Below are positions 55,352-57,250 of a stretch of DNA of 64,000 nucleotides, one piece after another. How positions within the stretch are numbered: position 1 is the stretch's first letter; each line of letters opens with the position of its first letter. The stretch is from Flavobacteriales bacterium (GTDB taxonomy: Bacteria > Bacteroidota > Bacteroidia > CAIKAF01): positions 186,001-250,000 of the forward strand of contig JANWKT010000001.1 in the NCBI GenBank assembly GCA_025451235.1, in the 5' to 3' direction. The position numbers were made by a program, and so were the translations under genes. The notes beneath the pieces are model-generated. The model was not told where the DNA came from. It made no database searches and saw only the letters and a program-made list of their open reading frames with translations.

Positions 55352-55756
55352 ATGGATAGTTTTCCGTTTTACTTTTATCCCGTGGAAAACGAAGAAGAAA
55401 TACCTTTTGACTCAGCTCAGGGTGAAAAACAATCCCTGGGTAAGAAGATCAAAGGCAATGTTTGGTACCGCATTGGAAAGAATAAATACATCCTTGTGGT
55501 GACTTTTTTTTTGGTATGGATGATGTTTTTTGATAACAACAACTGGTTCTACCTGAGCAAGCTTACCGATGAGGCCCATTTAAAACAAAGCGAAAAAGCC
55601 TGGTATAAGCATGAGATCAAAGAGTCTGAAAGAGAATTGACCGAGCTTACTACCGACTTAAAAGCATTGGCTAAATTTGGAAGGGAAAAATACTATATGA
55701 AGAAGAGCAATGAAGACGTTTTTGTCTTCTTCCCTGTAGCCGAGAAAAAACCATAA
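55352..55756 (+). CDS. DivIC/FtsB-like septum formation initiator
   Basis: A 134-residue bitopic membrane protein. The core from about residue 33 is normal: basic start, one membrane helix (YILVVTFFLVWMMFFD), a coiled-coil region (TDEAHLKQSEKAWYKHEIKESERELTELTTDLKAL) and the family ending REKYYMKKSNEDVFVFF. Such proteins link FtsL and FtsQ in the divisome. The first 32 residues are extra and contain FDSAQGEKQ, which looks like a translated intergenic repeat. No in-frame ATG lies between 55352 and the core. A terminator follows. Confidence 0.85.
   Translation: MDSFPFYFYPVENEEEIPFDSAQGEKQSLGKKIKGNVWYRIGKNKYILVVTFFLVWMMFFDNNNWFYLSKLTDEAHLKQSEKAWYKHEIKESERELTELTTDLKALAKFGREKYYMKKSNEDVFVFFPVAEKKP
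55404..55425 (+). repeat. Intergenic-type repeat word read as FDSAQGE inside the DivIC-like gene
   Basis: The sequence from 55404 to 55425 (core GACTCAGCTCAGGGTGA) resembles the common bacterial repeat core GACTCCGCTCAGGGTGA. In this frame such repeats read FDSAQG. It is in frame with the DivIC-like gene, so it adds residues to the N-terminus instead of breaking it. Confidence 0.5.
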
Positions 55757-55760
55757 ACAA

Positions 55761-55789
55761 AAAAGCCATCAAAGTATGATGGCTTTTTT
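55761..55789. terminator. Intrinsic terminator of the DivIC-like gene
   Basis: AAAAGCCATCA, loop AAGTA, TGATGGCTTTTTT. It follows the stop at 55756 by 4 bases. Confidence 0.85.
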
Positions 55790-55834
55790 ACATTTGGTGA
55801 ACCTAATGAAACAATGTTTTCTTTTTAAAAAACC

Positions 55835-55963
55835 CCTGCTTGAGCAGGACTGTAACCTGCTTTTGCAGGACTGTAACCTGCTTTTGCAGGACTTTCAGAT
55901 CCCTGCTTTCGCAGGGATAAGTTCGACTATGTGATTTCAGAAAGCGGAGCTTTCTAAAATCAC
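55835..55963. repeat. Tandem hairpin array between convergent genes
   Basis: Three hairpins repeat with a 21-base period: CCTGCTTgAGCAGG at 55835-55848, CCTGCTTTTGCAGG at 55856-55869 and 55877-55890, each followed by ACTGTAA or a near variant. A stronger CCCTGCTTTCGCAGGG is at 55901-55916. A fifth, unrelated hairpin at 55931-55963 (GTGATTTcAGAAAGC, gga, GCTTTCTaaAATCAC) completes the array. It lies just downstream of the recombinase stop at 55972. Units are too short for CRISPR. Confidence 0.8.
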
Positions 55964-55971
55964 AGTCTCAC

Positions 55972-57030
55972 TTAATTATATAATATATCCAATGGCCATT
56001 TTTTACCACCTGCTTTAAAATCTAATTTCGCTTCTACTTTTCCATGACCCAGCATCTGGCGAATTACATTCAGGTCAGCTCCTTGTTCTTTCAAATGCTC
56101 TTCAAAGGATTTGCTTAATCCCGGAGTGTTGATCTTTTTACGGATCCTGGCTGATTGTAACGATGATTTTAATGCATGTTGGATTGATCGAATGCTATAT
56201 GCACCTCCATCAGCTCCTTCAAATAAATATTTTTCAGGTTTAAATTCTTTCATGTATTTCGCAAGGATGGCAGCATCCGACTTAGAGATCATAAATGATT
56301 TCTCTTTTCCTGAAGCTGTTTTGCGGATGATCACTTTATTCCCTTTCAGGTCAACATCCCCTACCCGAATGGTAGAAATGTCGCTTACCCGAATACCACA
56401 TCCATAGGCCAAACTGACGATGGCTTTGTATTTGGTGTTATCTACTGCTTCAAATATCTTACTTAAATCACTATCATTAAGAGACTTAACTTCAGATTTA
56501 TTCCTTGGACGAGAGAACCCTACCGGCAATATATCCTTATGGGCCACTTCCTGGAAATAAAACTTGATCGCATTGACTCTCAGGTGCATCTGGTGATCTT
56601 TCACCCCTAATTCCTCAATACAATAGAGTAAATAAGAGCTTACTTGCTTAGTCGTTAATTTATTGATCTGATTCTGGCCCAATAAATACATTAATTGAAG
56701 CAATTCCATTCTATAAATACGAATAGTATTGTCGCTGTATTTTTTTCTTCTCATGGCCTTCACCATATCGTCCAAAGCCTTGTTATTAGCGTCGTTCACA
56801 AACCATTCCTTCTTCTTTTGTGATACATGCTGTGGTGGCTCTGTAACCGGAAGGCCACATTTTCTGCGGTTTTCAGCAGTATCAGGAATATGCCATCCTT
56901 TCAATTGCTTGCTGAATTGCGCACCCTCAACAGCTTTCATGTATTTATCCCATTCCGAATTGGATGGGAATTTTACCATGATTCTGCTCTGTCCACGGTT
57001 ATCGATTACTTTAAAATTTATTGCCGCCAT
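55972..57030 (-). CDS. Tyrosine-recombinase homologue lacking catalytic residues
   Basis: A 352-residue protein. Residues 1-60 form an unusual basic N-terminal domain. About 80-165 is the SAM-like core-binding domain (KYSDNTIRIYRMELLQLMYLLG). About 180-340 is the catalytic domain. R214 (GCGIRVSD), K242 (TASGKEK) and H329 (LGHG) fit the catalytic set. The HxLR box is PGLS (residues 303-306), so its histidine and arginine are gone, and the nucleophile tyrosine position is F338 (KLDF). The frame is intact, so this looks like a maintained DNA-binding protein, not a decayed pseudogene. A TACTTTTG promoter element lies at 57066-57073. The hairpin array follows the stop. Confidence 0.85.
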   Translation of the reverse strand: MAAINFKVIDNRGQSRIMVKFPSNSEWDKYMKAVEGAQFSKQLKGWHIPDTAENRRKCGLPVTEPPQHVSQKKKEWFVNDANNKALDDMVKAMRRKKYSDNTIRIYRMELLQLMYLLGQNQINKLTTKQVSSYLLYCIEELGVKDHQMHLRVNAIKFYFQEVAHKDILPVGFSRPRNKSEVKSLNDSDLSKIFEAVDNTKYKAIVSLAYGCGIRVSDISTIRVGDVDLKGNKVIIRKTASGKEKSFMISKSDAAILAKYMKEFKPEKYLFEGADGGAYSIRSIQHALKSSLQSARIRKKINTPGLSKSFEEHLKEQGADLNVIRQMLGHGKVEAKLDFKAGGKKWPLDILYN

Positions 57031-57065
57031 ATGCTACTTGGTTTAGTTAAAATCAAACGGTTGTT

Positions 57066-57073
57066 CAAAAGTA
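57066..57073 (-). promoter_or_regulatory. Promoter -7 element of the recombinase-like gene
   Basis: The minus strand reads TACTTTTG, 36 bases before the ATG at 57030. The rest of the AT-rich gap (57074-57220) shows no gene. Confidence 0.45.
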
Positions 57074-57220
57074 GTATAAAATCGACATTATTAACAAATA
57101 AATTGTGAAAAACTTTCTTCCGACTAACCAATTAGCGTATTTCATATTTGGATTAGTTAGCCTCAATTTATACGTAATATGCTGATTATATGATATTTAA
57201 TAATAAAAAAGACTAATAAA

Positions 57221-57250
57221 AAAAGGCTGCCATTTTCCGGCAGCCTTTTT
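57221..57250 (-). terminator. Intrinsic terminator of the DUF2723 gene
   Basis: AAAAGGCTGCC and GGCAGCCTTTTT form an 11-bp stem. On the minus strand a T-run (TTTTTTTATTAG) follows. It lies 27 bases after the stop at 57277. Confidence 0.85.

Follow-up and report, generated by a model that had tools for sequence, protein, structure and literature searches.

What becomes of a tyrosine recombinase that has lost the residues with which it would cut DNA? The question is raised by an open reading frame on the minus strand (positions 55972–57030) of the window – the whole stretch of 64,000 nucleotides from a Flavobacteriales bacterium analysed here – which encodes a protein of 352 residues, its frame intact and with zero internal stops. 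A first, sequence-only reading had described the product as a complete but non-cleaving, DNA-binding derivative of the tyrosine recombinases, with three of the six catalytic residues gone.

Homology and predicted fold place the protein in the tyrosine recombinase superfamily: it matches the Phage_integrase family (Pfam PF00589) at 70.9 bits against a cut-off of 27.1, and carries a SAM-like core-binding domain that scores 36.5 bits. Its AF2 model has a mean pLDDT of 84.5 and a pTM of 0.54, and confidence drops in the linkers and at residues 331–340; the relative placement of the two domains in the model is uncertain, and the low confidence of the C-terminal segment (331–340) limits what the model can say about the DNA-binding geometry. 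When this model was used in a fold search, archaeal Xer/XerA structures came top and IntI4 next (Z scores of 17–21), with both the core-binding and the catalytic domain fold recovered; SroF and MrpR/YopR – repressors with a recombinase fold – were also among the matches. Judged by profile scores, the protein is not a XerC or XerD, reaching 85 and 88 bits with the equivalogs TIGR02224 and TIGR02225 (cut-offs 335 and 330), and the host genome encodes a separate XerD above its cut-off as well as a XerC-like protein. Nor is it, by score and context, an integron integrase (IntI): the TIGR02249 match stands at 101.4 bits against a cut-off of 265, and a search with an attC covariance model found no attC sites in the window or in the orthologous locus (L048) described below. 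As far as its residues tell, it is not an active tyrosine recombinase either, the R-K-H-R-H/W set plus Tyr being incomplete.

Four of the six catalytic residues are replaced, lysine by A239, histidine by P303, arginine by S306 and the nucleophilic tyrosine by F338. The features first reported – PGLS at the HxLR box (residues 303–306), F338 at the nucleophile position, the retained catalytic residues R214 and H329, and the open frame – are all seen in the reading frame and the alignment. The loss itself is thus real, although the count of three must be raised, since the catalytic lysine aligns to A239: the column of this β-hairpin lysine – which we take to correspond to XerD K172, the first lysine of GKGxKxR – falls on A239 free of gaps both in a 35-row alignment and in an alignment to archaeal Xer (4a8e). 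K242, previously thought to be the remaining catalytic lysine, is the neighbouring second, non-catalytic one. The alignment check suggested at the outset came out in favour of the loss, with no substitute tyrosine or HxxR in the active-site columns. With these four residues gone, DNA cleavage by the chemistry of the family is no longer possible.

The rest of the protein has fared differently, the changes being concentrated in the catalytic parts beyond what chance would give. Taking the columns conserved across 33 active relatives, 14 of the 26 in the lysine hairpin and box II are altered (1/5 kept in the hairpin and 11/21 in box II), as against one of ten in the core-binding domain, where 9/10 are kept; the mid catalytic domain keeps 12/15. 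The C-terminal PLD motif is retained, and the net charge of the protein is +23, that of the listed active relatives ranging from +20 to +32. The kept core-binding columns and this charge lend indirect support to the earlier suggestion of DNA binding; the claim that its N-terminal domain is unusual finds no support, as the closest active relatives align from query residue 1–17 onward.

The same losses recur in a second genome of the genus, the MAG Flavobacteriales bacterium CRAIB_MAG97 (G001; contig JANWKQ010000252.1, loci L009/L048). Its orthologue (L048:4772–5830), also of 352 residues, is 91% identical and has PGLS and Phe likewise, so that the proposed search for orthologues with the same loss succeeded and a local mutation or assembly error is ruled out. 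In both genomes the flanking genes are the same, one of the DUF2723 type and one DivIC-like. Two orthologues are known – a single species pair, from which the selection values are estimated – and their genes differ at 17% of nucleotides. Whole-gene dN and dS are 0.058 and 1.19 by NG86, and 0.064 and 0.94 by YN00, giving a dN/dS of about 0.05 with dS near saturation. Three of the four losses fall in the last 57 codons, for which dN drops to 0.026. The dN of the gene is the lowest among seven neighbouring orthologous pairs, below even those of genes named by eye from sequence as aldehyde-dehydrogenase-like and carbonic-anhydrase-like. An orthologue with the same loss, purifying selection and a common chromosomal site strongly support a complete, non-cleaving derivative, as first proposed.

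The gene is narrowly distributed. The 14 other family genomes compared lack it, and their matches are other recombinases, 25–29% identical at E <1e-25 (the order-level comparison covers the same 16 genomes as the family); in the remaining genera, neither the DivIC-like gene nor the recombinase homologue is found beside the DUF2723-type gene. Among 395 genomes of the class, a subset of a larger group, no further copy with the loss was found, and the next-best relative, at 35% identity, is active. One scan of genome contigs gave no orthologue besides the L048 copy, viral contigs gave none, and plasmid matches were all below 60% identity, the best row being at 32%.

The closest other relatives are 17 Bacteroidota recombinases of 30–35% identity, which keep HxLR in 17/17 cases and the tyrosine in all but L060, where it is Asn. 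Four of their loci contain attC-like sites of 132–133 nt with complementary 7-nt ends, long inner arms and folding energies of -44 to -54 kcal/mol; a covariance model built from the sites of these four loci yielded seven matches at L102 (one truncated), four at L107 and three at L097, matches outside the model reaching E-values down to 1e-16. A further attC-like site lies at L062, and others at some more distant relatives. Since at least 8 of the 17 relatives thus lie near attC sites of the 133-nt type, the ancestor was probably an integron-type integrase. Two trees group the inactive pair with the clade of these relatives (support 100/99 and 100/100), either inside that clade or beside it. 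They also give the pair a stem of 2.3–4 changes per column and tips of 0.01–0.09 – a shape that a burst of change followed by constraint would leave, as is expected of domestication.

Several observations concern these relatives and the host genome in their own right. A 6.4-kb segment with the same integrase (L097:8276–14649 and L098:5605–11966) is 98.8% identical in genomes of two families, which, on sequence grounds, is a recent transfer; it starts close to the attI-like junction that lies upstream of the integrase. L060 (1438–2535; G277) is an integron-type integrase with HxLR intact and Tyr changed to Asn, possibly an independent loss, and an attC-like site lies in its region (L104). L097, L102, L107, L040 and others are Bacteroidota integrases near homogeneous 133-nt attC arrays that do not reach the TIGR02249 cut-off and seem to be missing much of the IntI-specific insertion; where IntI4 has about 74 residues, L010, the active relative compared, has about 30. 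The TIGR02249 match of the inactive protein itself is split into two stretches. The host genome carries a solo attC-like site of 49.5 bits far from any integrase (G000:C14:345275–345408; L108:7276–7409) and, at G000:C40:17767–23107, three tyrosine-recombinase genes close together, possibly a recombinase-trio element.

Conservation extends beyond the coding sequence. The 130 bp upstream of the gene (57031–57160, minus strand) are 87.7% identical to the orthologous locus, the top value among seven neighbouring genes; the six others have 47.7–76.9%, the 76.9% belonging to a gene whose upstream region is the coding sequence of its neighbour, and shuffled sequences give about 54% under the same aligner. 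Within this block lies a promoter-like TTTG-N21-TACTTTTG (57066–57098, minus strand), placed from sequence and alignment, in which CTTG replaces TTTG in the orthologue and which presumably represents the -33/-7 promoter type of Bacteroidota. An imperfect inverted repeat, TTTTTCACAA-5-TTGTTAATAA (57088–57112, minus strand), overlaps the -33 element and is a candidate operator; the genome holds no other exact copy of it, and near-matches are not commoner than those of a reversed control. A second conserved element, AACTAATYCAAAT..GAAATACGCTAATTGGTTAGTCG (57115–57159, minus strand), with ACTAAnCCAA-like half sites in both orientations, is a candidate binding site. A search for the upstream element at other genes of the genome gave nothing, so that no regulon emerges. 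Two further candidates were rejected: a regulon via GCTAATTGGTTAG, which has one other exact match only, adjoining an unrelated hairpin repeat; and a relic attI site, for which TAACTAATCCAAATATG resembled the TAACTC..AAATATACGC junction of the relatives, as 31 of 300 shuffles scored equally in a PWM scan. The block also includes TTTTTCACA (57104–57112, minus strand), which fits what we take to be the loose DnaA-box consensus, TTWTNCACA, and may be there by chance.

On either side, the gene is bounded by terminator-like structures, neither assigned to a strand: a hairpin at 57220–57250, between the DUF2723-type gene and the recombinase homologue, which is present in both species, and an inverted repeat at 55750–55798, between the recombinase homologue and the DivIC-like gene, with a similar one in L048. 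Between the latter and the gene, positions 55835–55917 hold three 21-bp hairpin units (CCTGCTTTTGCAGGACTGTAA type) and a fourth hairpin, REP-like in character, whose core CCTGCTTTNGCAGG has seven copies in the genome versus zero for a reversed control. This array, which the sequence-only reading had put forward as a binding partner, is missing from L048 and is thereby ruled out as a conserved target.

We favour, with a probability of about 0.5, the reading that the protein is a domesticated, non-cleaving, DNA-binding transcriptional regulator, whose likeliest site – binding being something we infer – is its own promoter. An integron-type integrase of Bacteroidota would have become fixed on the chromosome of the genus, with no cassette array beside it, and would have lost its catalytic Lys, His, Arg and Tyr, retaining its fold, core-binding domain and positive charge as well as the C-terminal PLD motif. 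Such a protein would be expected to serve as a transcriptional regulator, its dimers or oligomers binding inverted-repeat sites in double-stranded DNA; at its own promoter, binding to the conserved inverted repeat that overlaps the -33 element would bring about autorepression, and it may act at other genomic sites too. Autoregulation of the kind seen in IntS, exerted by a protein of the MrpR kind, would be the simplest reading of the upstream block, whose conservation could also stem from control by another factor in its place. Autoregulation of IntI1 was not found in the review searched.

A different role, which we consider unlikely, is accessory or architectural: the protein would be a subunit that serves an active recombinase of the same cell – XerC/XerD or another integrase – sitting as an inactive protomer on one arm of the recombination site and bending the DNA or blocking cleavage. 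Partners are at hand in the XerD- and XerC-like proteins and further recombinases of the cell, R214, H329 and the PLD motif are kept, and TnsF is a precedent for an inactive recombinase serving a mobile-DNA machine (PMC10293859). Yet neither species has a recombinase gene or recognisable recombination site adjoining this one, which stands alone under a promoter-like sequence of its own and, within the family, is limited to the genus, though all family genomes have such recombinases. The directionality-factor role once suggested finds no positive support: no mobile element or second recombinase was found adjoining the gene.

Still less probable is that the protein, in the manner of integron integrases, binds folded single-stranded hairpins (attC or REP-like) so as to protect or silence them: its relatives are integron-type, host contig 14 has one solo attC-like site and hairpin repeats adjoin the gene in the window, but the repeats are specific to one of the two loci, neither species has an attC close to the gene, and a single solo site would be a thin target for so constrained a protein. 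We think it just as improbable that the protein has left DNA altogether, its fold now a scaffold, for instance for protein–protein interaction; the very long stem branch and the many replacements in box II, among which A310E and T311E add acidic residues, would suit this, whereas the charge and the core-binding columns resemble those of active relatives. As for a decaying integrase gene at an early pseudogene stage, almost one third of intI genes were pseudogenes in one survey (PMC2426708), but these have stops or frameshifts, the frame here is open in both species, and the low dN/dS together with the strongly conserved upstream region contradicts decay so plainly that we regard a pseudogene as ruled out in practice.

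If the regulator reading holds, an integron-type integrase may have been domesticated in a genus of Bacteroidota, ending up as a DNA-binding regulator that is catalytically dead and encoded on the chromosome – a bacterial counterpart of DUF3504 and, going by the papers searched, the first from the integron lineage – a proposal that we put forward tentatively, a little below even odds. Tyrosine recombinases that have lost activity but are retained to bind DNA already have examples in a prophage (MrpR), in a transposon (TnsF) and in animals (DUF3504); the open-access literature searched gave no report of an integron integrase that persists, inactive, as a regulator. A case that is fixed in the host and comes from the integron lineage, its active relatives still near cassette arrays, would offer a before-and-after pair for the passage from recombinase to regulator, and 'integrase' annotations made without an active-site check can hide regulators.

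One functional parallel is MrpR/YopR of the Bacillus prophage SPbeta, a repressor of recombinase fold that has lost catalysis and whose DNA binding was shown by experiment (PMC10516654; PDB 8a0a, 8bpz, 8bj6). The two proteins have in common the fold and the loss of most catalytic residues, but repression is experimental for MrpR and inferred here; MrpR keeps Lys and Tyr and has lost Arg-I, His, Arg-II and His, whereas the present protein keeps Arg-I and the last His, and MrpR is prophage-borne where the present protein is chromosomal. MrpR gave no phmmer match at E 0.001, and its fold match (Z 13.3, 13% identity) is no better than those of other recombinases. The integrase IntS of prophage KplE1, which represses the promoter of its own gene by binding to it (PMC2951348), is the model for the autoregulation proposed here, but IntS is active and its promoter overlaps attL. 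With IntI, the protein shares a fold (IntI4, 2a3v: Z 17.4, rmsd 5.2 over 250 residues), and attC cassette sites occur close to its nearest active relatives; here, catalysis is lost and no attI or attC adjoins the gene. TnsF of Tn6022-like Tn7 transposons, an inactivated tyrosine recombinase co-opted for DNA recognition as a target selector (PMC10293859), likewise has an inactivated recombinase domain with active relatives, but belongs to a transposon and has zinc fingers, whereas the gene described here occupies a fixed chromosomal site with no transposon seen. Finally, the Crypton-derived DUF3504 proteins of animals, which have lost Tyr, Arg-II and mostly His (PMC3212892), differ in being eukaryotic, in their Crypton origin and in their usual fusion to other domains; yet their pattern of loss is close to the one found here, and both would be domesticated recombinase domains.
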